Part shown: positions 6,194 to 23,078 of the stretch, piece after piece | Layout of the letters: the number at the start of each line of letters is the position of its first letter | How positions within the stretch are numbered: the first letter of the stretch is position 1 | Assembly: GCF_900113805.1 (NCBI RefSeq) | Contig: NZ_FOQT01000001.1 | Location: 62,001 to 126,000 of the forward strand | Direction: 5' to 3' | Source of the DNA: Halpernia frigidisoli | GTDB taxonomy: Bacteria; Bacteroidota; Bacteroidia; Flavobacteriales; Weeksellaceae | DNA: 64,000 nt | Translations under genes and position numbers: made by a program | Notes under the pieces: model-generated | Told to the model about the DNA's origin: nothing | What the model saw: the letters and a program-made list of their open reading frames with translations, nothing else | The model's database searches: none

Positions 6194-6209
6194 TTTTTAA
6201 CAGAAAAAA

Positions 6210-7733: not shown

Positions 7734-7861
7734 AAAATTATTTCACAAGAATATGTCAACTGTGAATTTTAAAAATTGACAATTATTCATTTATTAAAAA
7801 TTCACAATTTTTCACCTTCAGTAATTCACAAATATTTGCTATTATTGCAAAACCAATTTTT

Positions 7862-7935
7862 GGGGGATTAGCTCATCTGGCTAGAGCGTTTGACTGGCAG
7901 TCAAGAGGTGGTCGGTTCGATCCCGATATCCTCCA
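7862..7935 (+). tRNA. tRNA-Ala (anticodon GGC)
   Basis: Full cloverleaf: acceptor GGGGGAT with ATCCTCC (one G-U), D stem GCTC/GAGC, anticodon stem TTTGA/TCAAG with loop CTGGCAG giving anticodon GGC, T arm GTCGG-TTCGATC-CCGAT, discriminator A. The CCA end is not encoded. Followed by a terminator. It borders the accessory restriction region, but I see no attachment-site duplication. Confidence 0.93.
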
Positions 7936-7950
7936 CAATTTTTAAAATAA

Positions 7951-7979
7951 AACTCCCGATTTTTTCGGGAGTTTTTTTG
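7951..7979 (+). terminator. rho-independent terminator after tRNA-Ala
   Basis: Nine-base-pair stem AACTCCCGA/TCGGGAGTT with a five-base loop, followed by seven T residues. Confidence 0.85.
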
Positions 7980-8049
7980 TCATATATAATTTTTCAACTA
8001 TTTTATTTTTAAAAATTGTACTTAAAGTATCTTTAAATTTACTTATTAC

Positions 8050-8094
8050 TTACGGTTTCCCGTAAAGATGCACATAATTTTTTGGCTATATTTG
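8050..8094 (+). promoter_or_regulatory. probable promoter of the restriction-modification operon with an inverted repeat
   Basis: A consensus -7 element TATATTTG lies at 8087-8094, 17 bases before the ATG at 8111. No TTG is seen at the -33 position; instead a 6-bp inverted repeat TTACGG (8050-8055) / CCGTAA (8060-8065) sits there, a possible operator or activator site. Confidence 0.5.
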
Positions 8095-8110
8095 AGCATC
8101 TTAACAAAAA

Positions 8111-8374
8111 ATGATACAAATGATTAATTATAATGGAGACTTAGCAATCGATCTTGACACTGTAAAAGCAATTAAGATGGTGTTTCTTCCGCAAGGTGGT
8201 AATCTAATTTTTGAATTTAATAACATGATAGTCCCAATTAAAAATGAAGATACAGGTGAAATGGAATTAAAGTCATTCAGAAATGATGCTATATCTCACT
8301 ACATTGATATGCGAGATAGTCTTCGGGCTTATTTTGATGAATGGGTGGAGTTTTGGCAGGAAAGTAAAAAATAG
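8111..8374 (+). CDS. small unknown protein leading the restriction-modification operon
   Basis: An 87-residue acidic protein I do not recognise. It begins with a beta-rich half (MINYNGDLAIDLDTVKAIKMVFLP, NLIFEFNNMIVPI), then a short charged turn and a C-terminal helix with several aromatic residues (YFDEWVEFWQES). It has no signal peptide or membrane segment. It ends 22 bases before hsdM, with no terminator between, and starts just after the presumed operon promoter, so it is likely cotranscribed with hsdM. A regulatory or anti-restriction timing role is conceivable but not shown by the sequence. Confidence 0.65.
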   Translation: MIQMINYNGDLAIDLDTVKAIKMVFLPQGGNLIFEFNNMIVPIKNEDTGEMELKSFRNDAISHYIDMRDSLRAYFDEWVEFWQESKK

Positions 8375-8396
8375 TTAAGTGATTTAAAAATAATAA

Positions 8397-10877
8397 ATGG
8401 CCATAAAAAAAACAGAACTCTACCGCTCACTTTGGGCGAGTTGTGACGAATTACGCGGCGGAATGGACGCCTCTCAATATAAAGATTATGTACTCACGAT
8501 GTTATTTGTGAAGTATATTTCAGACAAAGCAAAATCAGATAAGGATTTTGCCATCGAAATTCCAGATGGTGCCTCTTTTGAGGATATGGTGAACCTGATC
8601 GGGAATACCGAGGTTGGTGATAAAATCAATAAGCAAGTTTTGAATCCGATTAAAGAAGCCAATGGTCTGAATGATTTTCCCGATTTTAATGATGAAAGCA
8701 AATTAGGCAAAGGAAAAGATTTGGTGGAAACCGTTTCTAACCTGGTCAGAATCTTTAATGACAACAGTTTAGATTTTTCTAAAAACTCGGCAGAAGGCGA
8801 TGATATTTTGGGCGATGCATATGAATATCTAATGCGGCATTTTGCGACAGAATCAGGTAAATCGAAAGGTCAGTTTTATACGCCTGCCGAAGTTTCCAGG
8901 ATTTTAGCAAAGGTGATTGGAATTACTTTTAATAACGCGACAACGCAAACTACGGCTTATGATCCGACGTGTGGATCGGGATCGTTGCTGTTAAAAGTGG
9001 CAAACGAAGCCGGAAAAGCCATTACGCTTTACGGTCAGGAAAAAGAAACCACCACCGCCAACTTGGCGCACATGAACATGATTTTGCATGGTGCGGAAAC
9101 GGCAGAGATTGTTGCCGATAATACGTTGACAAGACCCGCGTACAAAGAAGACGACGGCAGTTTGAAACGTTTTGATTACGTGGTTGCCAATCCGCCTTTT
9201 TCATTAAAAAGTTGGAGCAATGGTGTTAATATCGAAAGTGATGAATTTGAGCGATTTACTTTAGGCGTTCCGCCCGAGAAGAATGGCGATTATTCTTTTC
9301 TGCTGCATATTTTGCAATCTATGAAAGCCAAGGGAAAAGCCGCAGTGGTTTTGCCACATGGTGTTTTATTTCGTGGAAATGCAGAAGGTGAGATCCGTAA
9401 AAATATTTTAAAGAAAGGCTATATCAAAGGGATTATCGGTTTGCCGGCGAACTTGTTTTATGGTACGGGAATTCCGGCCTGTATTATTATTTTAGATAAA
9501 GAAAATGCAGAACATCGGAAAGGGATTTTTATGATGGATGCCAGCAAAGGTTTCCTGAAAGATGGTAACAAAAACCGTTTGCGGGAACAGGATTTGCGTA
9601 AGATCACGGATGTATTTACCCAAATGCAGGAAGTTCCCAAATATAGTCGCATGGTTCCGATGAGCGAAATCGCCGATGCTAAAAACGATTACAATTTAAA
9701 TATTCCGCGCTATATCGATACGCAGGAAAGCGAAGATATTCAAGATTTATTGGCGCATTTGCAAGGTGGAATTCCGCAGCGTGATCTGGAAGCCATGCAA
9801 ACTTATTGGAACGCTTATCCAAAACTTAAAAATGAACTTTTTTCGTCTTTGCGTGAAGGTTATTTACAATTAAATTATGAGCCTTCAGATATTAAGCCGA
9901 CGATTTTTGGACATTCAGAATTTAAAGCCTTTAATGAAACTTTAAACCAAACTTACAACCATTGGTTGAGCGACCAGTTTGAAATTTGGGAAAAACTGGA
10001 AGTTCATTGCAACGGAAAGGATCTGATTGCGCAAATGAGTGAAAGTCTGCTCAAAGCCTTTGAAAATAATACTTTGGTGAATGGTTATGATTTGTATCAA
10101 CATGCGATGACCTATTGGCAGGAAACGATGCAGGACGATGTGTATTCTATTTCTTTGGATGGCTGGAAAGCCGGAAATGAATGGGAACGCACCATTATTA
10201 AAGGAAAGAAAGGCAAAGATGGAAAGGCTGGAAAAGATAAAGAAGTTTCTGGTTTGACAGGAATTGAAGGTAGAATGATATCTCCTGATCTATTGATAAA
10301 TTTTTATTTTAATGATTTGGTGCAGGAAATTTATGCTCTTAAAAATGAAGCAGAAAACGCGCAGATTTTAATTGCGGAAATTGAAGAAGAGCAAAGCGGC
10401 GAAGAAGGTTTGTTTGCAGATCTGGAAAAAATAAATGCCGGGGAAGTATTAAAATTATTAAAAGCCAGGCAGAAAGAAGACCTTAAAATGGTGGCAGAAC
10501 CAAATAGCAAGTACGGCACTCAAACCATAAAAAGTGATCTGGAAATTTTGGAAGATTATCTTTCTGCGTCCAGTACCATTAAAGAAAACAATGCGACTGT
10601 AAAAATTTTAGAAGCGCAACTGGAAGAAGAAGTCATTGCGAAATATCCTGAATTGACTGAAGACGACATAAAAGAATTAGTTATTCAGCATAAATGGATG
10701 GCGCATCTTACAAGTACATTACACCAGGAACAGGATAAAATCTCGCAGGGTTTGACCCAAAGAATAAATGCTTTGGCAGAACGGTATGCGACGACATTGG
10801 CAAGTTCGCAAACGGAATTGGCAGCAGCCGAAACCAAAGTGATGGCTCATTTAGAAAAAATGGGATTGGTATGGTAA
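8397..10877 (+). CDS. hsdM: type I restriction-modification system methyltransferase subunit
   Basis: N6-adenine methyltransferase subunit of a type I enzyme, forming a complex with HsdS (methylation) and HsdR (restriction). HsdM N-terminal helical domain (ELYRSLWASCDELRGGMDASQYKDYVLTM split over residues 6-35), AdoMet site AYDPTCGSGSLLLKVA (about 189-204) and catalytic NPPF (about residue 264). The 826 residues exceed the roughly 500-540 of classical HsdM: after the methylase core there is an extra C-terminal region of about 300 residues with a glycine/lysine-rich linker near 600 and predicted coiled coils (residues 655-820). Such long HsdM forms occur in Bacteroidota. The stop overlaps the next start by seven bases. 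Confidence 0.95.
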   Translation: MAIKKTELYRSLWASCDELRGGMDASQYKDYVLTMLFVKYISDKAKSDKDFAIEIPDGASFEDMVNLIGNTEVGDKINKQVLNPIKEANGLNDFPDFNDESKLGKGKDLVETVSNLVRIFNDNSLDFSKNSAEGDDILGDAYEYLMRHFATESGKSKGQFYTPAEVSRILAKVIGITFNNATTQTTAYDPTCGSGSLLLKVANEAGKAITLYGQEKETTTANLAHMNMILHGAETAEIVADNTLTRPAYKEDDGSLKRFDYVVANPPFSLKSWSNGVNIESDEFERFTLGVPPEKNGDYSFLLHILQSMKAKGKAAVVLPHGVLFRGNAEGEIRKNILKKGYIKGIIGLPANLFYGTGIPACIIILDKENAEHRKGIFMMDASKGFLKDGNKNRLREQDLRKITDVFTQMQEVPKYSRMVPMSEIADAKNDYNLNIPRYIDTQESEDIQDLLAHLQGGIPQRDLEAMQTYWNAYPKLKNELFSSLREGYLQLNYEPSDIKPTIFGHSEFKAFNETLNQTYNHWLSDQFEIWEKLEVHCNGKDLIAQMSESLLKAFENNTLVNGYDLYQHAMTYWQETMQDDVYSISLDGWKAGNEWERTIIKGKKGKDGKAGKDKEVSGLTGIEGRMISPDLLINFYFNDLVQEIYALKNEAENAQILIAEIEEEQSGEEGLFADLEKINAGEVLKLLKARQKEDLKMVAEPNSKYGTQTIKSDLEILEDYLSASSTIKENNATVKILEAQLEEEVIAKYPELTEDDIKELVIQHKWMAHLTSTLHQEQDKISQGLTQRINALAERYATTLASSQTELAAAETKVMAHLEKMGLVW

Positions 10878-12103
10878 AGGAAGCGAAGATGAAGCAGACG
10901 GAGATTGGTTTGATTCCGGAGGATTGGGAAGTTGTAATTCTTGGTGAAAATTGTTTGTTAAAAGCAAGAATAGGTTGGCAAGGACTTACCACTTCAGAAT
11001 ATTTATCTTCTGGAGATTACTTTTTAGTTACAGGAACTGATTTTAAAAATGGATACATTGATTGGAATAATTGTGTTTATGTAGAAAAAATGCGATTTGA
11101 CCAAGATAGAAATATCCAATTAAAAGAAAATGATGTAGTTGTTACGAAAGATGGAACAATTGGAAAAGTTGCTTTTATAAATAAAATTTTAAAACCTACT
11201 ACTTTAAATAGCGGTGTTTTTGTTTTAAGATCAAAAAATAATAAAATTTCCAATAGGTTTATTTATTATATATTGATGTCTTTCTACTTTGATGAATTTT
11301 TAAATAAAATCACAGCAGGATCTACAATTACACATTTATATCAAAAAGATTTTGTCCACTTTAATTTCATTTGTCCACCACTCGCCGAGCAAGAAGCCAT
11401 TGCAACGGCCTTAAGTGATTGCGATTCCTGGATTGACAGCATAGAAGAAGTTTTAGCCAAAAAACGCCTCATCAAACAAGGTGCAATGCAGGAATTGTTG
11501 ACGCCAAAAGAGGATTGGGAAGTGAAGAATCTAGGAAAAGTGATTGATGTTTTTAGAGGTGGATCACCGCGTCCAATTCAAAATTATATGACTGATAAAA
11601 ATGACGGTATCAATTGGATAAAAATCGGTGATACTTCGTCAACAGGAAAATATATTTTTGAAACTAAAGAAAAAATAATTCCAGAAGGCGCTAATTTCTC
11701 TAGGAAAGTTTTTAAAGGTGATTTCCTATTATCTAATTCAATGAGTTTTGGTCGTCCGTACATTTTAAAAATTGATGGTTGCGTTCATGATGGTTGGTTA
11801 GTTTTATCTAATTATCAATCAACCTTTAATACTGAATTTCTATATTATTTTCTACTTTCAAAAATAGTAATCGATCAGTATAAAAGTAAAGCGGCAGGAA
11901 GTGGCGTATTAAATTTGAATAAAGTTTTGGTAAGTAGCGTTGAAGTATATTTTCCATCACTTTCGGAGCAAACGCGCATCGCCACGATCTTATCGGATAT
12001 GGATTTAGAAATCGAAGCGCTGGAAGAAAAACTGCACAAAGCCCGTCAAATCAAACAAGGTATAATGCAGGAATTGCTGACGGGGAGAGTGAGGTTGGTT
12101 TAG
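10871..12103 (+). CDS. hsdS: type I restriction-modification system specificity subunit
   Basis: DNA-recognition subunit with two target-recognition domains, each followed by a conserved helix: LAEQEAIATALSDCDSWIDSI..KQGAMQELLT (residues about 176-215) and LSEQTRIATILSDMDLEIEAL..KQGIMQELLTGR (about 370-408). This internal duplication is diagnostic. The 410 residues are normal. The ATG at 10871 overlaps hsdM; an internal ATG seven codons in (MKQTEIGLIPEDWEVV) matches the common family start and may be the true one. The recognition sequence should be bipartite and cannot be predicted by eye. Confidence 0.95.
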   Translation: MVKEAKMKQTEIGLIPEDWEVVILGENCLLKARIGWQGLTTSEYLSSGDYFLVTGTDFKNGYIDWNNCVYVEKMRFDQDRNIQLKENDVVVTKDGTIGKVAFINKILKPTTLNSGVFVLRSKNNKISNRFIYYILMSFYFDEFLNKITAGSTITHLYQKDFVHFNFICPPLAEQEAIATALSDCDSWIDSIEEVLAKKRLIKQGAMQELLTPKEDWEVKNLGKVIDVFRGGSPRPIQNYMTDKNDGINWIKIGDTSSTGKYIFETKEKIIPEGANFSRKVFKGDFLLSNSMSFGRPYILKIDGCVHDGWLVLSNYQSTFNTEFLYYFLLSKIVIDQYKSKAAGSGVLNLNKVLVSSVEVYFPSLSEQTRIATILSDMDLEIEALEEKLHKARQIKQGIMQELLTGRVRLV

Positions 12104-12132
12104 GGGAATTTAAATAAAAACGAAAATAAATT

Positions 12133-12984
12133 ATGGCACTATTCGAAGGAACTCTTGAAGAGTTTGAGAAATTTATTGGACCAGCAACCAATAAAGTCGT
12201 TACCAGATTGGGAAAGCAATTAAAGAAAACTCAAAAAAGTTGCCAGAATCATATTATTGGCGATAAAACATGTGGGGTTTGGAAAAGTCTAGACGCCGGT
12301 CATTTTTCGCATCTTGGCAATGATAGGAAATCAATGATTCAAGAAATATTAAAAAAGTATTTGATAAAAAATGGACTTATTTATCATGTTGATTTAATGT
12401 TATTCTTAGATGAATTTGAGAAAGCTCATTCTCCTTTAAATAAAAACCTCATTATGTTGTGCAGACAGCATCATATAAATTATGATTTAAAGAATAGAAT
12501 TAAAGATAAAAAAATCACTATTGAACAAAATTATAATGACACTGAAATCTCTGAAAATGATATCCAAGAACCTATTTTAATATCACAAGAAATACTGTTG
12601 AATAATTTAGCTACAAGAGTTGATAAAAAAGTAGTAAAAGATAAAATTATTTTTCTCTTAGCTCATCTAAATATATCTACAGAAAATTGCGCTTTTGCAA
12701 AATATACAAATAAGAAATGGCAGTTTGATATAGCGGAAAAAAAACTCGATCAAGATTACAACTTTATTTTTTATAACAGTTTAAATTATTCTTTTGATGT
12801 GGGAAAAATAAGTAGATACGCAATTCAAAAAATAATCCCAAAGCTTAAATCAAAGACATATAAAGACAGAAATAATGAAAAATCATTTAATATTATTTTT
12901 GATGGGACTGATTATGTCGAAATTGGAAGTGATCAGATATTTGAAATAATTTATAGTGGTAAACTAGATTTAAAAATAATATAA
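12133..12984 (+). CDS. HNH-nuclease-like protein between hsdS and hsdR
   Basis: A 283-residue protein with an HNH-like zinc-finger core: C37 and C47, then DAGHF (54-58) with H57 and H60, a helical insert, and NLIMLCRQHH (105-114) with C110, H113 and H114. The pattern Cys-Cys-(D..GH)-(N..LC..HH) is that of beta-beta-alpha metal nucleases. The C-terminal 150 residues are unrecognised. It starts 29 bases after hsdS. Composition is visibly more AT-rich (many ATA, AAT and TTA codons) than hsdM/hsdS/hsdR. It is probably a DNA-cutting defence component; the family name is not certain. Confidence 0.6.
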   Translation: MALFEGTLEEFEKFIGPATNKVVTRLGKQLKKTQKSCQNHIIGDKTCGVWKSLDAGHFSHLGNDRKSMIQEILKKYLIKNGLIYHVDLMLFLDEFEKAHSPLNKNLIMLCRQHHINYDLKNRIKDKKITIEQNYNDTEISENDIQEPILISQEILLNNLATRVDKKVVKDKIIFLLAHLNISTENCAFAKYTNKKWQFDIAEKKLDQDYNFIFYNSLNYSFDVGKISRYAIQKIIPKLKSKTYKDRNNEKSFNIIFDGTDYVEIGSDQIFEIIYSGKLDLKII

Positions 12985-12994
12985 TTTGTGAAAG

Positions 12995-14422
12995 TTGGAA
13001 AATATAAAATTAAATAATGAAGCAGATATTATTTCAATCTCTAAATTTCTAGAACTGAATGATATGCGTATTCCTGAATACCAAAGATCTTACAAATGGA
13101 CAGATAAAAATGTGATGCAACTGCTTAATGATATTTTCACCCATAAAAATAAGAGTAGGTATCGGTTAGGTACAATTGTAATTCACAGAAATTATATAGC
13201 CTCCGAAAAAAAGGTGTATAATGACATTGTAGATGGACAGCAACGATTTACAACTTTGAGAATAATATTATATGCAATAGGAAAATTGTTAGAGGAAAGT
13301 AAAGAAAATTTTGAGCCATATATTATAAATCAAACTACTGAACTTATTCAGAAAGTTGATAAAATTCCCATTTATTACAGCAGTAAAGAAAGTGTTAAAA
13401 GAATATATAACAATTTTCAAACTGCTTTTAGAATTATAAGCAAATATGATACACTTACCATCAAAGCATTTTTAGAAAAGTGTGAAGTAGTGATATTTTA
13501 TATTTCAGACATAACTGAAGCATTTCAATTTTTTGATTCTCAAAACTCCCGGGGTAAAGATTTATATCCGCATGATTTATTAAAAGCATATCACTTACGA
13601 GAATTTGATGAAAATGAGCAAAAGCAACAGGTTGAGATAGTAACTAATTGGGAGAATTATGAATCTGATGAATTAGCGTATGTTTTTTCAGATTATTTAT
13701 ATAGGATAAAGGGTTGGGCAGATCAAAACTCCTCACGTAAATTTTCTAAGCGAAATGTTGATATGTTCAAAGGTGTTAATGTATCAAAGGAAAAATCATA
13801 TCCTTATATTAAATCTTTACACATCGCACATCGGTTTGTAGAAAATTATAACAATAATTTTGAAAGACAAATTGATAAGCAAGAATTTGAATATCCTTTT
13901 CAGTTAGATAGCATAATGATTAATGGAAGAAGGTTCTTTGAATATACTGCGCATTATAAGAATATTATAGGAGGTTTTAAATTAAAATATGAAATAAAAG
14001 AATGGTCTGATGAATTATCGTCATCACAAAAAATATTTTTTTTAGTTTATTATAATCAAAAAAAGCACAGAGACGGAGAACAATATTTAAAAGCACTTTT
14101 CGAATGTCTGGTTATTTACTATATTGATAAATTTGGTTTCGAAGAATTTGATTATTTTCTTGAAAAAGCATTTGTATGGGTATTTTCTATGCGCTTTCAT
14201 TACCAAAGATTAGGTTTTGATTCTGTCGATAATCACGTTATTCAAAACACCAATTTATTTAATGTGATTAAGCGAGCAATTTACCCTGAGCAAATAATTA
14301 ATGCAAATATTTCTGGTGTTTTACCAAGTAAACAACAAGTAGATAATTATTCAGTTAAGAATGATCGTATGGATAGTAGAATAGGAATTTTTTTTAAAAG
14401 CAAATTGTATTATGCAAATTAA
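12995..14422 (+). CDS. DUF262 protein (GmrS-like NTPase/ParB-type domain), first of a tandem pair
   Basis: 475 residues with the DUF262 signature: RIPEYQRSYKW (25-35), DGQQRFTTLR (80-89) and the F..QNSRGKDLYPHDLLKA segment (about 177-195). In GmrSD-type modification-dependent restriction enzymes this domain hydrolyses nucleotide and resembles a ParB-like fold. The C-terminal part lacks an obvious HNH/DUF1524 motif. The frame has no ATG before the signature except M24, so a TTG at 12995 is the likely start. It begins 10 bases after the HNH-like gene and overlaps the next gene by 11 bases. AT-rich. Role in modification-dependent restriction is inference from the family. Confidence 0.8.
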   Translation: MENIKLNNEADIISISKFLELNDMRIPEYQRSYKWTDKNVMQLLNDIFTHKNKSRYRLGTIVIHRNYIASEKKVYNDIVDGQQRFTTLRIILYAIGKLLEESKENFEPYIINQTTELIQKVDKIPIYYSSKESVKRIYNNFQTAFRIISKYDTLTIKAFLEKCEVVIFYISDITEAFQFFDSQNSRGKDLYPHDLLKAYHLREFDENEQKQQVEIVTNWENYESDELAYVFSDYLYRIKGWADQNSSRKFSKRNVDMFKGVNVSKEKSYPYIKSLHIAHRFVENYNNNFERQIDKQEFEYPFQLDSIMINGRRFFEYTAHYKNIIGGFKLKYEIKEWSDELSSSQKIFFLVYYNQKKHRDGEQYLKALFECLVIYYIDKFGFEEFDYFLEKAFVWVFSMRFHYQRLGFDSVDNHVIQNTNLFNVIKRAIYPEQIINANISGVLPSKQQVDNYSVKNDRMDSRIGIFFKSKLYYAN

Positions 14423-16472
14423 CCACTCCGATTTAAAATCGCTCAATATAAAGGATTTACTCTTAAATGATGATAAATATATAATTCCAGTTTATCAAAG
14501 AAATTATGAATGGAAAAAAGAACAAATAGAGCAACTACTCATAGATATCAAAGATTATTTTATTGAGGAAAACGATAAAAATTATTATATCGGAACATTG
14601 ATAGTAGATAAGAAGAAGACAAAAAATAATGTTTACGAAACTATTGATGGACAACAGAGGTTAACTACAATCAACATTCTTTGCTGTGCTATGAAAGAAT
14701 TAAATATTGATATTCATCAATACTTTAAAGAACCTATAATTAGTTTTGAAAGTAGAAAAAATTCGGATGAAACTATTGATTATATCTTTAATAATGGAGG
14801 TAAAGAAGAACCGAAATTCCTTAAATATAACGTTGGTATTTTTGACGGAATAGTGATATCCAAGGATTTGCTTTTAAAACTAAAGAATGAATTATCTGAA
14901 AAATTTGATCAATTTATAATTTATTTTTTTAAAAGAGTATTTATCCTACGAGCGCAAGTACCAGAAGATACAGATATGAATCATTATTTTGAAATAATGA
15001 ATTCTAGAGGGGAACAGCTTGAAAAGCATGAGATATTAAAGGCTCGTTTAATGAAGGAACTTAATACCGGAGATAATCCAATGCAGTTAAGACAGCATTT
15101 TAATTTTATTTGGGAAGCCTGTTCCGATATGATTACCAATGTACAGCTGCATTTTCAAAAAGAATATAGAAATAATATTTTTGGAGAAAACTGGTTTGAT
15201 TTTGTCATTAAAGATAGTGAGGAACTTTTTAATACATCAATATATGCTATTAAAAATAATGGAAAGGCACCTTCTTTAGGAGCTGAATTTAAAACAATAA
15301 TTAAAGCTACAGATATAAACTTAGTTTTAAATGAAATGTTTGATTCACAATCTGTAAACGAATCAGAAGGAGAACAATTCCAGCCAATAATTAATTTTGA
15401 AAATTTCTTGTTACATGTTTTAAAGATACAAGAGCAAAGTTATGATGTAAGTTTAGACGACAAGAGACTGCTGTCATTTTTTGAAAACATTTTGAATCAA
15501 AAAGAAGATAAAGTAAAATTTGTTAAAGACTTGACTTATACACTTCTTCAAACAAGATTTCTGTTAGATCAATATATCGTAAGTAGAAAGTACACTAATT
15601 CTAGTGATAGTTGGAGTTTGCAATGTCTGAAGTTTTACAGTAAAGATGATACACGTGAAAAAGATAGCTATAGCTATGTAAATACATTTACAGACCAAAA
15701 TAACGGCAAGTTAATTATGTTACTATCTATGTTTCATGTTTCTACGCCAACCCAAATATATAAATACTGGCTTTTTGCAGCACTTAATTATTTAGTTCAG
15801 AACCTTTCCATAGAAACTTTTGATGAAGGCGAGAAATCAACTCAGATACAAGGTGACGATTTTATAACCTTTCTTGAAAATATAGCTCAAAAATTCATGT
15901 TATATAGGCACTTAGCAAATAGTGTTGAAGATTATAATAAAATAATTTTATCACCGCATTTATTGGAAGATATAAAACCATTTAATTTTGAAAATAAAGT
16001 TAGTTATGGAAATATTGAAAGTAATTTAGTTTTCAATTATTTAGATTATATACTGTGGAACGAAAACCAGACAGAATATAAAGATTTTGAGTTTAGTTTT
16101 AGAAGCTCTGTTGAACACTATTATCCACAAAATCCTATTACAGGAGAATTTTTAACCAAAGAGTTAATCAAGGATGTGAATATATTAAAATTAAAAGATA
16201 AAAATGTAAGTTTTGATTTTCTTAATTGTTTAGGTAATTTATGTCTTATAACTCATAATAATAATTCTAGATTGAGTAATCATATGCCTAAAGCGAAAAA
16301 AGATTATTATGTTCAAGCTAAGTCGAAAGATAGCATTAAGCAATTATTTATGATGAATGACCAAAAGTATCCAAATTGGAAAGCAGATGAAATTTTTGAA
16401 CATCATAATGAAATGATTAGTAAATTATCAAATACTCTATTTATGGAGGAAGATGAATTAGCATTCTCATAA
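14412..16472 (+). CDS. DUF262-DUF1524 protein (GmrSD-type modification-dependent nuclease)
   Basis: 686-residue two-domain protein. N-terminal DUF262: IPVYQRNYEW (25-34), DGQQRLTT (79-86) and MNSRGEQLEKHEILKARL (about 195-212). C-terminal DUF1524 HNH nuclease: EHYYPQNP (about 561-568) and LGNLCLITHNNNSRLSN (about 607-623). This is the architecture of single-chain GmrSD/type IV enzymes, which cut DNA with modified cytosines, and of other DUF262-DUF1524 defence proteins. It overlaps the preceding DUF262 gene by 11 bases, so the two are translated together. AT-rich relative to the flanking hsd genes, suggesting later insertion into the type I operon. Confidence 0.87.
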   Translation: MQINHSDLKSLNIKDLLLNDDKYIIPVYQRNYEWKKEQIEQLLIDIKDYFIEENDKNYYIGTLIVDKKKTKNNVYETIDGQQRLTTINILCCAMKELNIDIHQYFKEPIISFESRKNSDETIDYIFNNGGKEEPKFLKYNVGIFDGIVISKDLLLKLKNELSEKFDQFIIYFFKRVFILRAQVPEDTDMNHYFEIMNSRGEQLEKHEILKARLMKELNTGDNPMQLRQHFNFIWEACSDMITNVQLHFQKEYRNNIFGENWFDFVIKDSEELFNTSIYAIKNNGKAPSLGAEFKTIIKATDINLVLNEMFDSQSVNESEGEQFQPIINFENFLLHVLKIQEQSYDVSLDDKRLLSFFENILNQKEDKVKFVKDLTYTLLQTRFLLDQYIVSRKYTNSSDSWSLQCLKFYSKDDTREKDSYSYVNTFTDQNNGKLIMLLSMFHVSTPTQIYKYWLFAALNYLVQNLSIETFDEGEKSTQIQGDDFITFLENIAQKFMLYRHLANSVEDYNKIILSPHLLEDIKPFNFENKVSYGNIESNLVFNYLDYILWNENQTEYKDFEFSFRSSVEHYYPQNPITGEFLTKELIKDVNILKLKDKNVSFDFLNCLGNLCLITHNNNSRLSNHMPKAKKDYYVQAKSKDSIKQLFMMNDQKYPNWKADEIFEHHNEMISKLSNTLFMEEDELAFS

Positions 16473-16574
16473 TTTATCTTTGAATTGCATAAATTTAAAA
16501 AATATACATATGTATTTTTACTGTCTTATAGAAAGCTACAAAATATATTTAATCTTCAGATAAAAAAATATAAC

Positions 16575-19500
16575 ATGATTAACCCCATAGAACGCATTAC
16601 CCAAAACCGCATCATTAAATTGTTTACCGAGCAATTGGGTTATATCTTTTATGGTGACTGGGAAGATCGTCTCAACAACAGCAATGTAGAAACAACCTAT
16701 CTGCGGAAATTTTTAAAGAAGAAAGAATATTCCGATACTTTGGTAGAGAAAGCGATTACGGAAGTGACGCAATTAGCCAGTTCTAATACAGGTAATTTAT
16801 ATGAACGCAACCAAAAGATGTATAATCTCTTGCGTTATGGCGTAAAAGCGAGACCGGAACTGGGCGAACAGTTTGAAACCATTTTCCCCATCGATTGGAA
16901 AAATTGGGAAGACAATGAATTTGGAATTGCAGAAGAAGTCACGCTTTATAATGACAAACACAACCGCCGCCCAGATATCGTGCTTTACATCAATGGAATT
17001 GCTATCGGGGTTTTAGAACTAAAAAGAGGAACTGTAGATATTGCGGAAAGCATCCGCCAGAATATTTCAAACCAACAGGAATTGTTTTCGCAACGGTTTT
17101 TCACAACTGTCCAGTTAATAATGGCTGGAAATAATACGCAAGGTTTACGATATGGAACTACCGATACAAAACAGAAATATTACCTTTCCTGGAAAGAAGA
17201 GGACCAGGATAATGAAGATTACAAACTTGATAAATACCTGAAGAAATTATGTGAGAAATCCCGCATGATTGATTTACTCTACAACGGTGTTATCTATGAT
17301 GCTGGAGTTAAAAAATTACCACGTCCTCATCAATATTTTGGTTTGAAGGCGGCGCAAGATTTTGTGAAACGCAGAGAAGGTGGCATTATCTGGCATACAC
17401 AAGGTTCGGGAAAATCCTTAATGATGGTGATGATTGGAAAGTGGATTTTAGAAAATATTCCCAATTCCAGAATTGTAATTCTTACGGATCGTACGGAATT
17501 AGACGACCAGATCGAACGGGTTTTTAATGATGTTGGCGAAACAGATATTGCAAAAATAAAATCTGGAAAAGAATTGATGCATTATTTGCAGGCTTCTAAA
17601 CCGCGATTAATCTGCTCTTTGATTCATAAATTCGGTAATAAAGGGGAAGCAGATTTTGATGTTTTTATTAAAGAATTAAAAGAAAATCCGATTACGACCC
17701 AAGGTGAAATATTTGTTTTTGTAGATGAGTGTCACCGTACGCAAAGTGGGAAACTGAATGAAGCCATGAAAGCCATTTTGCACAATGCAGTATTTATGGG
17801 TTTTACCGGAACACCTCTGTTGAAAGTCGATAAGAAAACCACGATGGATGTTTTCGGTCGTTATATTCATACTTATAAATTTAATGAAGCCGTTCAAGAT
17901 GGTGTCGTAAAAGATTTAATGTATGAAGGAAGACAGATTGAGCAAAAATTAACTTCTCAGAAAAAAGTAGATGAATGGTTCAACATCAAAACAAAAGGAC
18001 TGAATGATTTCCAACGGAATGAGTTGAAAAAGAAATGGGGAACCATGCAAAATGTGCTAAGTTCGAAAGGACGAATGGAGAAAATAGTGGCAGATATTGT
18101 AGTTGATTTTAGCACAAAACCACGTTTAGCCAGTCAAAATGGAAATGCCATTTTGGTCGCAGGAAGCATCTATGAAGCCGCCAAATATTACAGTCTTTTT
18201 CTGCAAACCGAACTTAAAGGAAAGTGTGCATTGATTACTTCTTACAATCCAAATGCAAGCGATATTTCCAAAGAAGATACCGGTGCAGAAACGGAAACAG
18301 ACAAAGAATTTATTTATAAAATCTATAGCGAATTACTAGAAAAGATAAGCGCAAAAGGCAATAAAACTAAAACTGAAACCTATGAATCTGATGTAAAAGA
18401 ACTTTTCAGAAAGCAACCTGCAAGAATGAAACTGCTGATCGTAGTTTCTAAATTATTGACTGGTTTTGACGCGCCGCCTTGCAGTTATATTTACATCGAT
18501 AAAAAAATGCAGGATCATACTTTGTTCCAGGCGATTTGCCGCGTAAACCGTTTAGATACCGATGATAAAGATTACGGTTACATTATAGATTACATGGAAT
18601 TATTTGGAAATGTAACTGACGCGATTGATGTTTATACATCAGAATTGGATAGTGAAGGTTTTAGCAAAGAAGATGTTTCTATACAGTTGAAAGACCGTTT
18701 AAAAGTTGCAGCAGAACGATTAGAAGTTGCCTTGGAAACCGTAGAAGCCTTGTGTGAAAATGTCCCAAATAAAAAAACTGATTTAGATTTTATTAAATAT
18801 TTCTGCGGGAATACCGAAAAGGAAGAAGATTTAAAAGCGAACGAATATAAACGAATGGCTTTGTATAAAGCGATTGTAGAATATATCCGGGCGTTTGCTA
18901 ATATGACGACTGACTTTGAAATTGCTGGTTACAAAGAGAAACAGATTAAACATTTTAAAGAGCGTCTGGATTTCTATCTTAATGTTAGAGAAGTAATAAG
19001 AATTGCAAGTAATGAAATCATTGATTTGAAAGTCTATGAAGCAGATATGCGTTTTCTTTTGGATACTTATATTAGAGCCGAAGAATCTGAAAAGATATCG
19101 CCATTTGAAGATATTTCTTTATTAGATTTAATAGATACCGATATGGATAAAGCAATTGATTCCCTACCCAAATCTTTAAAAGGAAGTAAAGAAGCCGTCG
19201 CCGAAGTAATTGAAAACAACGTACGAAGTAAAATTGTAGAAGAGCATTTGCTTGATCCGAAATATTTTGATGAGATGTCTGTGCTTTTAACGGAACTTAT
19301 TGAGGCAAGAAATCGAGAGTCAATTTCATACCAGGACTATTTAATGAAAATAGCGGAGTTGATCAGGATGGTCAATAAGGGTCAGAAAGATGATGTTCCA
19401 AAATCGTTGAATACAAAAGGTAAAGTGGCATTATACCATACTTTGGAAAATGAAGAATTAGCATTGGTCTGTGATCGGGAAGTTCAGTATGCAAAACAGG

Positions 19501-19625
19501 AAGGTTTCAGGGATAATTTGATGAAGCAGCGAAAAGTGAAGAATGCAATCAATCGTGTTGTCGAAGATGAGGTTTTAGCAGAACAGGTTTATCAAATTAT
19601 AGAGCAGAATAAAGAAGATTACTAA
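16575..19625 (+). CDS. hsdR: type I restriction endonuclease subunit R
   Basis: Motor and nuclease subunit of the type I system, 1016 residues from the ATG at 16575 (MINPIERITQNRII matches family starts; the frame stays open upstream to a TTG at 16485, giving 30 unconserved residues). PD-(D/E)xK nuclease: RRPDIVLYINGIAIGVLELKRG split across about 131-152. SF2 translocase: TQGSGKSLMM (Walker A, about 274-283), DECHR (about 384-388), TGTP, GFDAPP and QAICRVNR (motif VI). A helical C-terminal region binds the methylase. It is separated from hsdS by three foreign-looking genes. All catalytic motifs are intact, so the system looks functional. Confidence 0.95.
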   Translation: MINPIERITQNRIIKLFTEQLGYIFYGDWEDRLNNSNVETTYLRKFLKKKEYSDTLVEKAITEVTQLASSNTGNLYERNQKMYNLLRYGVKARPELGEQFETIFPIDWKNWEDNEFGIAEEVTLYNDKHNRRPDIVLYINGIAIGVLELKRGTVDIAESIRQNISNQQELFSQRFFTTVQLIMAGNNTQGLRYGTTDTKQKYYLSWKEEDQDNEDYKLDKYLKKLCEKSRMIDLLYNGVIYDAGVKKLPRPHQYFGLKAAQDFVKRREGGIIWHTQGSGKSLMMVMIGKWILENIPNSRIVILTDRTELDDQIERVFNDVGETDIAKIKSGKELMHYLQASKPRLICSLIHKFGNKGEADFDVFIKELKENPITTQGEIFVFVDECHRTQSGKLNEAMKAILHNAVFMGFTGTPLLKVDKKTTMDVFGRYIHTYKFNEAVQDGVVKDLMYEGRQIEQKLTSQKKVDEWFNIKTKGLNDFQRNELKKKWGTMQNVLSSKGRMEKIVADIVVDFSTKPRLASQNGNAILVAGSIYEAAKYYSLFLQTELKGKCALITSYNPNASDISKEDTGAETETDKEFIYKIYSELLEKISAKGNKTKTETYESDVKELFRKQPARMKLLIVVSKLLTGFDAPPCSYIYIDKKMQDHTLFQAICRVNRLDTDDKDYGYIIDYMELFGNVTDAIDVYTSELDSEGFSKEDVSIQLKDRLKVAAERLEVALETVEALCENVPNKKTDLDFIKYFCGNTEKEEDLKANEYKRMALYKAIVEYIRAFANMTTDFEIAGYKEKQIKHFKERLDFYLNVREVIRIASNEIIDLKVYEADMRFLLDTYIRAEESEKISPFEDISLLDLIDTDMDKAIDSLPKSLKGSKEAVAEVIENNVRSKIVEEHLLDPKYFDEMSVLLTELIEARNRESISYQDYLMKIAELIRMVNKGQKDDVPKSLNTKGKVALYHTLENEELALVCDREVQYAKQEGFRDNLMKQRKVKNAINRVVEDEVLAEQVYQIIEQNKEDY

Positions 19626-19626
19626 T

Positions 19627-20322
19627 ATGCGGACAGAGCATTTACAAATTGGTAGTTTAGAGGTTGAAGTAAAATTTAAACCTATTAAAAACCTGCACTT
19701 AAGTGTGCATCCACCTTTCGGAAATGTAACAGTTTCTTCACCAGAATTTTTTGATCTGGATAAGATTAAAGTTTATTTAATCACAAAAATCTCTTGGATA
19801 AAAAGAGAGCAGAATAAAATAGCAAGTCAGGAAAGAGAAGGTGAAAAATTAATGATTACGAGAGAAAGTCATTATTTTTTAGGGAAAAGATATTTGCTGA
19901 AAATTACAGAAGCCAAAAGAGCGTCTGTTAAAATTCACCATCAAGTCATAGAATTATTTTCTCCTGAACATTACACCACAGAACAGAAGCAGAAACAACT
20001 TAACAATTGGTATCGAAGAGAATTAAATACGGTTTTAGGTAAACTGCTAATGCACCATCTGCGAATCATGAATCTCACACTCGATACCTACTGTGTGCGA
20101 AAAATGAAAACTAAATGGGGAAGTTGCAACAATGAAAACAGCACACTCAATTTTAATATCGAATTAATTAAAAAACCAATGGATTGCATCGAATATATAG
20201 TTGTTCATGAATTGGTTCATTTGTTAGAAAGAAATCACAATAAGAATTTCATTATTTTGATGGATAAATATTTGCCAAATTGGAGAACACAGAAAAAAAT
20301 TCTAAATGATTTGCCTTTATAA
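19627..20322 (+). CDS. YgjP-like M48-type metallopeptidase linked to the type I system
   Basis: 231-residue protein of the YgjP/DUF45 family with HELVHLLERNHNKNF (about 196-210): the HExxH zinc site and a third ligand histidine. The upstream KMKTKWGSCN is the family's typical W-G-S-C segment. It starts one base after hsdR, so it is the last gene of the operon. Members are very often found next to hsdR; a role in protein turnover of the restriction complex is assumed but unproven. Confidence 0.88.
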   Translation: MRTEHLQIGSLEVEVKFKPIKNLHLSVHPPFGNVTVSSPEFFDLDKIKVYLITKISWIKREQNKIASQEREGEKLMITRESHYFLGKRYLLKITEAKRASVKIHHQVIELFSPEHYTTEQKQKQLNNWYRRELNTVLGKLLMHHLRIMNLTLDTYCVRKMKTKWGSCNNENSTLNFNIELIKKPMDCIEYIVVHELVHLLERNHNKNFIILMDKYLPNWRTQKKILNDLPL

Positions 20323-20340
20323 TTTAAATATATTTATTCT

Positions 20341-21102
20341 ATGCACCAAACCTACCGCATCGCCCTTCTCGAAGACAACACCAAACGACTGGATAAATTA
20401 GAATCTTACCTAAGTAAAATTCCCAATGTAGAAATTGTTTTAAAAAGCAAAACTTCTGATTATTTTCTTGATGAGGTTGGTTCTGCGCATCCCGATATTT
20501 TAATTGCAGATCTCAATTTAGGAAATGACAGCATGACAGGCATTGAAGTAGCGCAAGAAATCAAAATCCCGGTATTTTTTACCAGCAATAATCCTGAAAA
20601 ATATGTGCGACAAATAGAACAATTAAAACGGGATGCCGATATTTGCGTAGATCATCTCACAAAACCTTTTAAAGAAGAAGAGTTTTCAAAAAGTTTCAAG
20701 CGTTTTTTGCAGGAAGTATCATTTTTCAATTCCCTTCAATATGTTTATCTGGATTTTAATAAAACCAAAAGAAACGCCATTGCTATTCACGAAATTGTGT
20801 ATCTCTGTGCAGATAAAATGGCAGGTTCAGAATCCAACAATAAACAAATTCATTTTATCAATCGCGCCGCAGAAAACCTAATTGATTTTTCCTTTTCAAA
20901 AATGGAGCATAAAGGATTTTTAAAAACCCAGTTTGTTACTATTCACAAATCATTTAGGGTTAACAAAAAATACATCAAATGTTATCACAGAAAAGATGAA
21001 GAAGTAGAAATTACCATTTACGATGAGATTGGCAAGACAAAAAGTCACAGATTACCTGTGTCCGAAAATTACCATATTGTCATTAAAAAAGAGTTTGGTT
21101 AA
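20341..21102 (+). CDS. LytTR-family response regulator, orphan
   Basis: 253 residues. Receiver domain: acidic pair E11-D12, phospho-acceptor D57 in ILIADLNLG, switch Thr/Ser in FFTSNNP and the lysine of HLTKPF. C-terminal LytTR-type DNA-binding domain (about 140-250) with the usual TIHKSFRVNKKYI and LPVSENY segments. No histidine kinase lies beside it. It sits 18 bases after the metallopeptidase and before a terminator, so it may be transcribed with the restriction operon, which would be an unusual tie. Confidence 0.8.
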   Translation: MHQTYRIALLEDNTKRLDKLESYLSKIPNVEIVLKSKTSDYFLDEVGSAHPDILIADLNLGNDSMTGIEVAQEIKIPVFFTSNNPEKYVRQIEQLKRDADICVDHLTKPFKEEEFSKSFKRFLQEVSFFNSLQYVYLDFNKTKRNAIAIHEIVYLCADKMAGSESNNKQIHFINRAAENLIDFSFSKMEHKGFLKTQFVTIHKSFRVNKKYIKCYHRKDEEVEITIYDEIGKTKSHRLPVSENYHIVIKKEFG

Positions 21103-21138
21103 CCGCTCTTATTCTTCAAAAAAAACCTTTTGTTCCTG

Positions 21139-21174
21139 CGCTTCCGATGTTATTCTCGGAAGCGTATTTTTTTT
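21139..21174 (+). terminator. rho-independent terminator after the LytTR regulator
   Basis: Nine-base-pair stem CGCTTCCGA/TCGGAAGCG (21139-21147, 21156-21164) with an eight-base loop and a T-rich tail. It closes the restriction-modification operon. Confidence 0.8.
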
Positions 21175-21231
21175 ATTTTCTGGATTTTGTTTTGCTAATA
21201 ATTATGTATAACTAAAACAATAAAAATAATT

Positions 21232-22278
21232 ATGGAAACGACAAGAAGTCAAAGAACTTCAAAATCTCAATCTCAAAAAAAGGGTAACATCATGATTGAT
21301 TTTTTTCTAGATCAACATTTAGAAGATATAAAGAATAAAATTGCAGTGGATCTTCTATTTAAAATTGAAAAAGATTTTGAGCAAAGATTGAGAAGTAATT
21401 TGGGCAGAGTAAACAGCGAAATAAAAAAACTGATAACAAATAAAGATCTTATTAATGAAGATAGAAAAAATCTTCACAAGGAAATTGTTGATTTGAAGAC
21501 AAAACTAGACTCAATTAGAAATTATAAAACAATAAGCATAAAAATACAGCATGATGATCAATTAAAAGATTTAGGTGCTCAGCATTATCAGTTTTCAAAA
21601 TTACTACAATATGTGCAGACGAAAAATAATGTTTTTATGGTAGGTTCAGCGGGATCTGGTAAAACAACAGCTGCAGAAAATATTGCGAAAGCCCTTAATT
21701 TAGAATTTTATTTCACTGGTGCCATTACAAGTGAATTCAAATTAACTGGTTTTATGAATGCTCATGGTCAAATTGTTTCAACGCAATTTAGAAAAGCGTA
21801 TGAAGAAGGAGGTGTGTTTCTTTTTGATGAAATTGATGCGAGTTTTCCTCAAGCAATTTTAGCATTCAATGCAGCATTGGCGAATAAGTTTATGGATTTT
21901 CCTGATGGGAGAATTAATAGGCACAAAGATTTTTATTGTATTGCGGCAGCAAATACTTTTGGTACTGGTGCAGATAGAAAATACGTGGGAAGAAATCAAT
22001 TGGACGCTGCGAGTTTGGATCGATTTATTTTTCTATCATGGGAAATTGATGAGAACTTGGAACATCAATTAGCAAATAATACGGAATGGACAAACTATGT
22101 GCAAAAAGTAAGAAAAGCAGTCGCGAAAATTAGCGAAAGAGTAGTAGTAAGTCCAAGAGCTTCAATGATTGGTGCAGAATTATTACAACTAGGTATCAGT
22201 AGAGAAGAGGTCGAACAGGATGTTCTCTGGAAAGGACTTGATGCATCCAGAATTAAAATGATTAAAAATAATATTTAG
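21232..22278 (+). CDS. MoxR/CobS-like AAA+ ATPase
   Basis: 348 residues. A charged N-terminal tail and coiled coil (about 40-100) precede an AAA_5-type ATPase: Walker A GSAGSGKT (138-145), Walker B VFLFDEID (195-202), sensor-1 region IAAANTFGTG (about 237-246) and arginine finger in LDAASLDRF (about 256-264). This matches MoxR/CobS-type chaperone ATPases that act with a dedicated partner, usually encoded next to them. The partner here is the gene starting two bases after this stop. An internal ATG (MIDFFLDQHL, residue 21) is an alternative start. Function unknown; similar pairs are found in phages and accessory regions. Confidence 0.8.
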   Translation: METTRSQRTSKSQSQKKGNIMIDFFLDQHLEDIKNKIAVDLLFKIEKDFEQRLRSNLGRVNSEIKKLITNKDLINEDRKNLHKEIVDLKTKLDSIRNYKTISIKIQHDDQLKDLGAQHYQFSKLLQYVQTKNNVFMVGSAGSGKTTAAENIAKALNLEFYFTGAITSEFKLTGFMNAHGQIVSTQFRKAYEEGGVFLFDEIDASFPQAILAFNAALANKFMDFPDGRINRHKDFYCIAAANTFGTGADRKYVGRNQLDAASLDRFIFLSWEIDENLEHQLANNTEWTNYVQKVRKAVAKISERVVVSPRASMIGAELLQLGISREEVEQDVLWKGLDASRIKMIKNNI

Positions 22279-22280
22279 TT

Positions 22281-23078
22281 ATGAACAAATATGTACAATT
22301 TGATGACTTGCAGGACTTTTGGGATTTTTCCTTTAGAGAAAGTTCATCTCGCAATAAAAGTTCGCGAAATGCTGATTCTGATTGGTATGGTGATGTTTCT
22401 TGGACTGAAGCAAAAGTTTTGGCAAACTCAGGATGGATTGAAGGAATGAACGAAGTAAAAAAGATGAGCGTAGAATTATCTGAAATAATATGTTCTAAAA
22501 TTGAAAAATGGATACCTGAATACACGTATGCAGGAAATATAATTGATATAGGAATGTTTCTAAGCAATTCACCAGAATACTTTATAATTAAAAATCCTAC
22601 AGAGCAAGAACTAAGTGGCAAAATTGTGAAGTTAGTTTGTTCAATATCTTTTTTATGGCAAATAACACCACAAATTATAATTCAGAGAGGGGCGATGATT
22701 TGCGCATTGGTAGATGCATTAGAAATTTCGGGATATAGTTGCGAAATCATTATAAATCAAACAGCTACTTCTTATGGTGGAAAGTTTGAGGTGGATGTAT
22801 GCGTAAAAAAAGCGCATCAATCTTTAAACATTACTGAGGTTGCATTTTGCTTGGCTCATCCAGCCATGTTGAGAAGATTTATGTTTTCGGTTGCAGAACT
22901 CGAAGGTTGGGCGGATTACGCTACGGCTTATGGATGTCCTGCAACAGCTACAGAAAAAGGTGATGTGTATATTGATGAAATATTTAGTTTGGTAGTTCCT
23001 AATTCAGAAGCTATAGAGTGGGTAATCACACAATTAAAAAAACAAGGAATTCAGATCAGCGATAATATTATTAATTAA
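22281..23078 (+). CDS. unrecognised partner protein of the MoxR/CobS-like ATPase
   Basis: 265-residue soluble protein that I cannot place in a named family with confidence. The N-terminal third contains WTEAKVLANSGWIEGMNEV; the C-terminal two thirds alternate hydrophobic strands and helices (QIIIQRGAMICALVDALEISGYSCEIII, then a strand and AFCLAHPAMLRRFMFSVAE), an arrangement like a VWA/Rossmann fold but without a clear metal-site DxSxS. MoxR-type ATPases usually pair with VWA proteins, so this may be a divergent one. Start is two bases after the ATPase stop; operon certain in layout. The region is AT-rich. Confidence 0.6.
   Translation: MNKYVQFDDLQDFWDFSFRESSSRNKSSRNADSDWYGDVSWTEAKVLANSGWIEGMNEVKKMSVELSEIICSKIEKWIPEYTYAGNIIDIGMFLSNSPEYFIIKNPTEQELSGKIVKLVCSISFLWQITPQIIIQRGAMICALVDALEISGYSCEIIINQTATSYGGKFEVDVCVKKAHQSLNITEVAFCLAHPAMLRRFMFSVAELEGWADYATAYGCPATATEKGDVYIDEIFSLVVPNSEAIEWVITQLKKQGIQISDNIIN

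Follow-up and report, generated by a model that had tools for sequence, protein, structure and literature searches.

A probable TgvAB-type DUF262 gene pair and an HNH-like cargo gene between hsdS and hsdR of a Halpernia frigidisoli type I restriction operon

A type I restriction operon with three genes between hsdS and hsdR

The window analyzed here is a 64,000-nt stretch of Halpernia frigidisoli contig NZ_FOQT01000001.1 (GCF_900113805.1, positions 62,001-126,000). Its span 8111-21102 carries a predicted type I restriction-modification operon, with an 87-aa ORF 5' of hsdM and, 3' of hsdR, genes for a YgjP-like protein and a LytTR regulator. The features are as follows:

8111..8374, + strand: 87-aa ORF before hsdM, function unassigned (ORF list)
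8397..10877, + strand: hsdM, type I N6-adenine methyltransferase subunit (Pfam N6_Mtase, 1.6e-105; HsdM_N, 2.1e-12)
10871..12103, + strand: hsdS, specificity subunit (Pfam Methylase_S, 2.5e-40, two stretches)
12133..12984, + strand: orfA, HNH-like, 283 aa, extra cargo gene (spaced residues and relatives)
12995..14422, + strand: orfB, TgvA-like, 475 aa, TTG start (N-terminal DUF262 and DUF7834)
14412..16472, + strand: orfC, TgvB-like, 686 aa (N-terminal DUF262 and C-terminal DUF1524 His-Me nuclease)
16575..19625, + strand: hsdR, type I restriction subunit (TIGR00348, 2.7e-150, above cut-off)
19627..20322, + strand: YgjP-like metallopeptidase gene (Pfam YgjP-like, 3.8e-57)

The initial annotation had described intact hsdM, hsdS and hsdR genes with three genes between hsdS and hsdR, and both ORFs and domains bear this out: all three hsd genes are intact, their HsdM, HsdS and HsdR domains score above cut-off (as does TIGR00497 for hsdM), and orfA, orfB and orfC occupy 12133-16472. 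The gaps of 29 bases (hsdS-orfA) and 10 bases (orfA-orfB) and the 11-base overlap of orfB and orfC, also given there, are correct by coordinates, and this spacing suggests that the genes are co-transcribed. The hsdR ORF (16485-19625) opens at a TTG at 16485. Because a 75%-identical homologue starts at the point corresponding to the ATG at 16575, this ATG is more likely the start, and the distance between orfC and hsdR would therefore be 102 bases. The 87-aa ORF, for which no family match, no plasmid match and no relative among the compared loci was found, is possibly the first gene of the operon. At the other end, ygjP follows hsdR in 9/9 regions examined and is the usual follower in this operon family.

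orfB and orfC resemble TgvAB in layout, motifs and position

Pfam searches identified GmrSD_N/DUF262 (2.3e-30) and DUF7834 (5.9e-68) in OrfB, and GmrSD_N (6.9e-33) and GmrSD_C/DUF1524 (3.6e-10) in OrfC, in agreement with the proposal that a GmrSD-type pair is embedded in the type I operon. DUF7834 had no match in 14 control genomes. The best PADLOC models for orfB and orfC were HEC-06 and Orf5, which are DUF262 proteins, and each protein weakly matched SspE and PDB 9jfl, another DUF262 protein. The DGQQR motif was present in 85 of 86 aligned OrfB proteins including that of the window, the remaining row having a gap at the motif. In OrfC, DGQQR and the nuclease residues H, N and N (H569, N609 and N618) were invariant in 76/76 frames of at least 560 aa, a set that includes the window and plasmid loci and leaves out nine of the 78 scored loci without a frame of that length. 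The H-to-N spacing of OrfC (569 to 609) is longer than the 22-23 residues in eight homologues measured, and the insert follows the catalytic His, as it also does in the nearest relative, L034.

TgvAB is a type IV restriction system of two proteins, encoded within the type I operon that Vibrio cholerae carries on VPI-2 (PMC11411939; review PMC12409362). Like TgvAB, orfB and orfC are two adjacent genes with an N-terminal DUF262 in both products and a C-terminal DUF1524 in the second; they carry DGQQR in both proteins, retain the His-Me residues (His, Asn) in OrfC, and lie between hsdS and hsdR, while many homologues are placed elsewhere. Unlike in TgvAB, an HNH-like gene here separates hsdS from the first of the DUF262 genes, and OrfC has the insert that lengthens its H-to-N spacing. 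By layout, motifs and position, the features compared, orfB-orfC thus appears to match the type of TgvAB (VC1767/VC1766). GrwAB from WASA V. cholerae is likewise a two-protein GmrSD-like system, and it is reported to require both genes (PMC12137116). However, its nuclease protein is GrwA, and the partner GrwB carries a C-terminal extension described as unlike TgvA (PMC12137116), whereas OrfB has DUF7834. The DUF262 plus DUF1524 architecture of OrfC is also that of BrxU, GmrSD, Eco94GmrSD and SspE, but these are mostly single-protein systems, whereas orfC has a DUF262 partner gene.

The pair occurs both inside and outside hsd operons

Among 80 loci, 78 were scored; L051 was dropped (no hsd, orfB or orfC frame called) and L112, inside an hsd operon, was left unscored with orfB split in two frames. 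orfC immediately followed orfB in 75/78 scored genome-contig loci and lay within three ORFs in 76/78. With hsd genes sought on the same strand up to six ORFs upstream and eight downstream, they were found on both sides of the pair in 16 loci, on one side in 13 and not at all in 34, and the flanks were too short in 15; the search profiles had been built on the hsd genes of the window itself and may miss type I families unlike these. Matches to orfB were found in 938 of 72,556 plasmid records, 874 of them covering at least 80% of orfB, and no hsd genes were found near the pair in five of six plasmid regions examined. Pairs with no hsd genes found close by are therefore common, contrary to the absence of stand-alone copies that, according to the initial annotation, would have argued against insertion of a separate module. 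The order hsdM-hsdS-orfB-orfC-hsdR was found on an E. coli IncY plasmid, where an IS breaks hsdR, and in contigs of Pseudomonas, Yersinia, Rahnella, Serratia, Shewanella and Hymenobacter. The Shewanella contig L059 has this five-gene order with orfC in two frames, and Shewanella is among the genera named in the TgvAB paper (PMC11411939).

On a tree of 87 rows built by a quick method, 28 of them without an inside/alone label, a minimum of 12 changes in this label is needed, of which at least eight are forced by starred branches. Shuffled labels gave a mean of 16.4 changes, and 2/500 shuffles were as low as observed. These comparisons show that the pair moves into and out of type I operons.

Its position between hsdS and hsdR, like that of Campylobacter RloF (PMC4619093), would also fit OrfB and OrfC being R-linked subunits accessory to the type I enzyme rather than an independent restriction system. 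However, no hsd genes were found near the pair in the 34 loci and five plasmid regions above, and TgvAB is reported to protect independently of HsdR nuclease activity (PMC11411939), making such a role very improbable. A function as mere type I subunits was rejected, since the pair often occurs without hsd.

The hsdS-hsdR gap holds variable cargo

Nine related regions were examined. In seven of the eight with both hsdS and hsdR seen (L142, without hsdS, was excluded from this count), at least one ORF of at least 100 aa lies in between; G099 also matched but was left out, its hsdR being close to the contig start. The cargo differs among related operons and is often defence-like, so homologous hsd operons do not always carry the genes found in the window but hold other cargo at the same site. 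Extra genes beside the pair are likewise frequent and differ from locus to locus. Cargo at the hsdS-hsdR gap, made up of other genes, is also known from Campylobacter hsd loci, with RloF and further R-linked ORFs (PMC4619093), and from a type I system of E. coli, with DarTG2 (PMC12255303). A glycosylase-like gene is present in other loci; its structure model (pLDDT 41.2) was too poor for fold search.

The three inserted genes share a low GC content

The GC content of orfA (.268), orfB (.275) and orfC (.270) is below that of hsdM (.395), hsdS (.333) and hsdR (.359), or 27% for the three against 36-40% for hsdM/hsdR, in line with the AT-richness noted in the initial annotation. The 4.3-kb block (.271) is lower than each of the 510 sliding windows of block size that lie clear of it in the 64 kb, which overlap one another at 100-base steps (minimum.302). 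GC3 is also alike in the three genes (.200-.215). This common composition would also fit their joint arrival. Of 16 loci with the embedded pair, two of them (L031 and L034) with broken hsd genes, 13 have a pair that is AT-richer than hsdM/hsdR (mean difference in GC, -3.5 points); the window is the GC extreme among them (-10.2) and second to L100 in GC3. The proposed compositional distinctness of 12133-16472 is thus real, but the AT-richness of the window pair is partly general to embedded pairs. A joint module was not accepted on AT-richness alone, since the pairs embedded in other operons are AT-richer too.

orfA was not found in other pair loci

No family was found for OrfA in Pfam, PADLOC, NCBIfam or PHROGs, none among PDB sequences, and comparison with HNH family models gave no significant match. 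Because of this, the earlier HNH assignment is kept only as "HNH-like", on the basis of spaced Cys/His/Asn residues (C37, C47, H57, N105, C110, H113 and H114) and two distant relatives, one of which shows a weak resemblance to HNH_2 (E 0.18). A single-sequence structure model (mean pLDDT 35.5) was too poor to be read for a beta-beta-alpha metal fold or used in a fold search. The frame is not due to chance: it has 284 open codons, a length that none of 1000 shuffles of the bases in this stretch attained, the longest being 106.

orfA was not found in the 80 pair loci searched, with at least 1 kb 5' of orfB available in 73 of the 78 scored, in seven additional pair loci (six plasmid regions and L027) or in 394 other genomes of the same phylum. 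L034, the closest locus by orfB (66%), is uninformative on the former presence of orfA because the region 5' of its pair is lost. One of the two clear relatives lies on a conjugative plasmid, and no DUF262 gene is near either in the 16-18 kb read of each. Scans seeded on short peptides, which may miss distant relatives, recovered neither orfA nor its plasmid relative from phage records or IMG/VR, and in GTDB contigs (two-row alignment) 76 stretches fitted a pattern, of which 0 were confirmed.

The three-gene module that had been proposed is thus reduced to a recurring pair: orfB-orfC travel alone and inside hsd operons, while no second case of the triplet with orfA was found, and orfA-orfB-orfC as a module known elsewhere was rejected for this reason. 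The three genes could still encode one three-protein system, a TgvAB variant with the HNH protein as a second nuclease or targeting step, as the 10-base gap, the 11-base overlap, the equal GC and GC3 and the plausible zinc and HNH residues retained in OrfA would suggest. However, the failure to find orfA in the 80 and seven other pair loci, the lack of DUF262 genes beside its clear relatives, the variability of genes adjoining the pair, and the reported function of TgvAB in E. coli without an orfA-like gene (PMC11411939) make this improbable. We give similarly little credence to a three-component TgvAB relative, fixed in the type I operon, in which an HNH-like zinc protein from a family without a name works with the DUF262 pair, for example as a second nuclease or modified-DNA selector.

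A selfish or decaying passenger, such as a free-standing HNH homing-type gene with no defence role, is a possible but rather unlikely identity for orfA. The family is rare and patchy, one relative is on a conjugative plasmid, and the relatives have no neighbouring DUF262 genes; on the other hand, orfA is an uninterrupted frame that has kept its zinc and HNH residues, and the direct repeats sought around the inserted block, the sole mobility sign looked for, amounted to a single 25-base pair at 80%, judged to be chance. The simplest reading is that orfA is separately acquired cargo at the hsdS-hsdR hot spot, next to the TgvAB-type pair, and it may encode a small nuclease of independent function. 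The unusual element of the locus is orfA, not the DUF262 pair, which is a known kind of system.

Proposed function and implications

On the basis of the observed genes and domains, the invariant motifs, the pairing and mobility of orfB-orfC, the cargo site and the contrast in composition, we consider the locus probably an hsdM-hsdS-hsdR-ygjP operon with a TgvAB-type pair in the hsdS-hsdR gap and orfA as separate cargo. By analogy with known systems, HsdMS would methylate the host's own sites and HsdR would cut unmethylated foreign DNA, while OrfB and OrfC, as in TgvAB, GrwAB and BrxU, may work jointly as a modification-dependent nuclease, presumably requiring both proteins. Nucleotide binding and hydrolysis would fall to their DUF262 domains, as would the sensing of bulky modifications on bases, for example sugar-modified cytosines. 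The modified DNA would be cut by the His-Me finger of OrfC. Together the two layers would cover unmodified and modified phages. Such combined cover, put forward in the initial annotation, is plausible, and as an idea it is already published for TgvAB (PMC11411939). The same report gives 10- to 100-fold better protection by the five-gene cluster than by tgvAB alone against several phages, an advantage that its authors attribute to expression (PMC11411939).

The H. frigidisoli locus adds a probable TgvAB-type pair that is remote from the Vibrio system already published. It also directs the search for undescribed defence genes to hsdS-hsdR gaps, with orfA and the glycosylase-like gene as candidates.

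Organization of the hsd operon

As described in the initial annotation, hsdM, hsdS and hsdR are intact and three ORFs occupy the hsdS-hsdR gap, in the following order:

8397-10877, + strand, hsdM, intact, family match
10871-12103, + strand, hsdS, intact, family match
12133-12984, + strand, orfA, between hsdS and hsdR
12995-14422, + strand, orfB, domains DUF262 (GmrSD_N) and DUF7834
14412-16472, + strand, orfC, domains DUF262 and DUF1524 (GmrSD_C)
16485-19625, + strand, hsdR, intact, family match, likely start 16575

Upstream of hsdM, an 87-aa ORF (8111-8374) was found, for which no relatives were found; its place matches, in position only, that of the small repressor gene rptR before hsdM in E. 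coli (PMC12255303). After the metallopeptidase gene YgjP, positions 20341-23078 carry, in order, a LytTR response regulator, an AAA ATPase with weak likeness to IetA, and a DUF7192 protein.

orfB and orfC resemble the TgvAB system

TgvAB, reported by Vizzarro and colleagues, is encoded by a gene pair that sits between hsdS and hsdR in the type I system of Vibrio cholerae VPI-2, with DUF262 in both proteins and DUF1524 in the second; in 41,142 genomes the five-gene cluster formed with the hsd genes gave 79 hits and tgvAB 1,341 (PMC11411939). Both genes are required, the system acts on Tevenvirinae with modified cytosines, and alteration of the catalytic His or the metal-binding Asn of TgvB, its nuclease protein, abolishes activity (PMC11411939). 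The same layout and motifs were found in orfB and orfC, and it is on layout and motif that the link to the V. cholerae proteins rests. Of 86 aligned orfB proteins, 85 carry the motif DGQQR (the remaining row is gapped there), as do all 76 aligned orfC proteins, whose nuclease-domain His and two Asn are likewise invariant. Identity to sampled homologues is 38-45% (four for orfB, three for orfC). These features indicate that orfB and orfC encode an already known kind of system, of the TgvAB type. GrwAB is another two-protein system (PMC12137116). In genome G000, a weak DUF7834 match containing internal stop codons (C6:158900-159316) is perhaps the relict of a second copy.

The pair occurs inside and outside hsd operons

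A GTDB contig scan with the orfB alignment confirmed at least 410 relatives, of which the best 80 were kept and 78 scored. Among these 78 loci from the best 80, orfC immediately follows orfB in 75, and hsd genes were found on both sides in 16, on one side in 13 and on neither in 34 (same strand, up to six ORFs upstream and eight downstream), the flanks being too short in the other 15. In plasmids, orfB matched 938 of 72,556 records, 860 of them from Klebsiella; of six matching regions read, one is inside an hsd operon and five lack an annotated hsd gene; two of these carry an IS within or between the two genes of the pair, and one lies beside hhe. The question raised initially, whether these genes travel alone or only within hsd operons, is thus answered for the pair, which is found in both settings. 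A tree built by a quick method from 87 orfB proteins requires at least 12 changes of the inside/alone label, no fewer than eight of them forced by starred branches; shuffled labels gave a mean of 16.4 changes, and 2 of 500 shuffles were as low as observed. Because pairs are found in and out of hsd operons and the labels change on the tree, the pair moves from one context to the other, with some clustering.

The closest pair (orfB 66%), from Sphingobacterium alimentarium (L034:5538-9643), is preceded by a truncated hsdM and no hsdS, reflecting either a deletion or an assembly fault. At another locus (L035:7183-16226), the pair is flanked by two gene pairs judged by eye, an ATPase with an HNH-type gene, presumably Septu-like, and an OLD-like with a UvrD-like gene, which we take to be Gabija-like.

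The hsdS-hsdR gap as a cargo site

Of 148 same-phylum genomes searched, 11 contain an HsdR relative, counting the genome from which the window comes. Nine related hsd regions were read; hsdS and hsdR were both seen in eight, seven of which carry at least one ORF of at least 100 aa between them.

Content of the hsdS-hsdR gap in related operons
L134: different DUF262 pair, 611 and 851 aa (5158-9535); HsdR 75% identical to the window's
L135: three genes, then a TgvAB-type pair (orfC match 3e-187)
L136: KilA-N protein
L137: ATPase-like gene (by eye) and others; KilA-N relative instead between hsdM and hsdS
L138: AAA protein, DUF262 protein and one further
L139: nuclease-like gene (11967-12890, weak NucS_C match) and a second gene
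L140: empty of such ORFs
L141: two genes, one (14472-15398) 61% identical to the L139 nuclease-like gene

Among the pair loci, L066 and L072 have Schlafen-AlbA genes in the gap. These arrangements show that cargo genes are accommodated between hsdS and hsdR, in line with the proposal that defence systems may recombine at a hot spot in this gap (PMC12255303) and with the location of Campylobacter RloF there (PMC4619093).

In Marinomonas vulgaris, a TgvAB-type pair is separated from hsdR by a stack of DarT and macro-domain (DarTG-like) genes (L057:14163-15883). A gene of about 210 aa lies immediately upstream of the TgvAB-type pair at three loci (L078:1684-2310, L085:3652-4317, L135:9454-10098); it has a weak, below cut-off match (E 2e-6 to 6e-6) to TIGR04274, a model for DNA-deoxyinosine glycosylase, and is possibly a glycosylase partner of the pair, or cargo.

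Composition and distribution of the block

The block (12133-16472) is, as initially noted, more AT-rich than the hsd genes, with GC of.268 (orfA),.275 (orfB) and.270 (orfC) versus.395 (hsdM),.333 (hsdS) and.359 (hsdR), and the GC of these 4.3 kb lies below that of all 510 non-touching sliding windows of equal size within the 64 kb. As a control, 16 embedded loci were compared, the window counted in; hsd genes are broken in two of them. The pair is AT-richer than hsdM/hsdR in 13 of 16, by a mean of 3.5 points, the window's 10.2-point difference being the extreme in GC and its GC3 contrast ranking second, behind L100. When codon usage was compared with that of the remaining window, the distances of the module (.169,.160 and.152 for orfA, orfB and orfC) did not set it apart from hsdM (.142), hsdS (.116), YgjP (.155) and AAA (.162). 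The contrast is real and compatible with a foreign origin of the block, and part of the AT-richness is usual for this pair.

In the same-genus genome G001, the efflux genes and tRNA-Ala are kept, but the gene that comes next differs, and the counterparts of the genes to the right sit on another contig. Since, in addition, the DNA comparison, in which 40 of 342 candidates were scored, listed no match to the hsd block, and neither orfA nor orfB gave a protein match in G001, the hsd block seems variable within the genus; no exact boundaries of it were located.

orfA is a rare gene

The open frame of orfA is far beyond chance length, and no match was found in four family libraries or among solved structures. 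The searches gave two clear relatives. One is an ORF of plasmid pKAZ2 that carries no annotation (33% identity over residues 1-121); about 7.7 kb separate it from a type I hsdM annotated on the opposite strand (L023:1-307 and 8001-8714). The other is an ORF of genome G101, two genes past two genes resembling, by eye, cytosine methyltransferases. In all three, the spacing of Cys, His, Cys and H-Y-D resembles that of a zinc-site HNH domain; orfA retains C37, C47, H57, N105, C110, H113 and H114, the Asn is not conserved across the three, and the pKAZ2 relative shows weak HNH_2 likeness (E 0.18).

In overlapping sets, orfA matched none of 58 related and none of 394 other same-phylum genomes; a two-row profile matched one of 295 genomes (G101), and a three-row profile recovered, in 394 genomes, G101 again with three marginal partial matches. 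The initial annotation had regarded the three genes as one module, of which no second case was found among same-phylum genomes and pair loci, nor a description in the accessible parts of the open-licence literature. Because neither sequence nor profile searches detected orfA in the 80 pair loci (at least 1 kb upstream of orfB in 73 of 78 scored), and no DUF262 gene lies within the 16-18 kb read around either relative, the triplet, with one known example, cannot on these comparisons be called a unit.

Overall, the original observation is sound and the biology mostly known, with orfA as one rare unexplained gene in the locus. The locus most likely comprises two complementary restriction layers, in which the type I system would restrict unmethylated DNA and orfB and orfC would provide TgvAB-type restriction of modified DNA, an idea already published for TgvAB (PMC11411939), with orfA probably as extra cargo.
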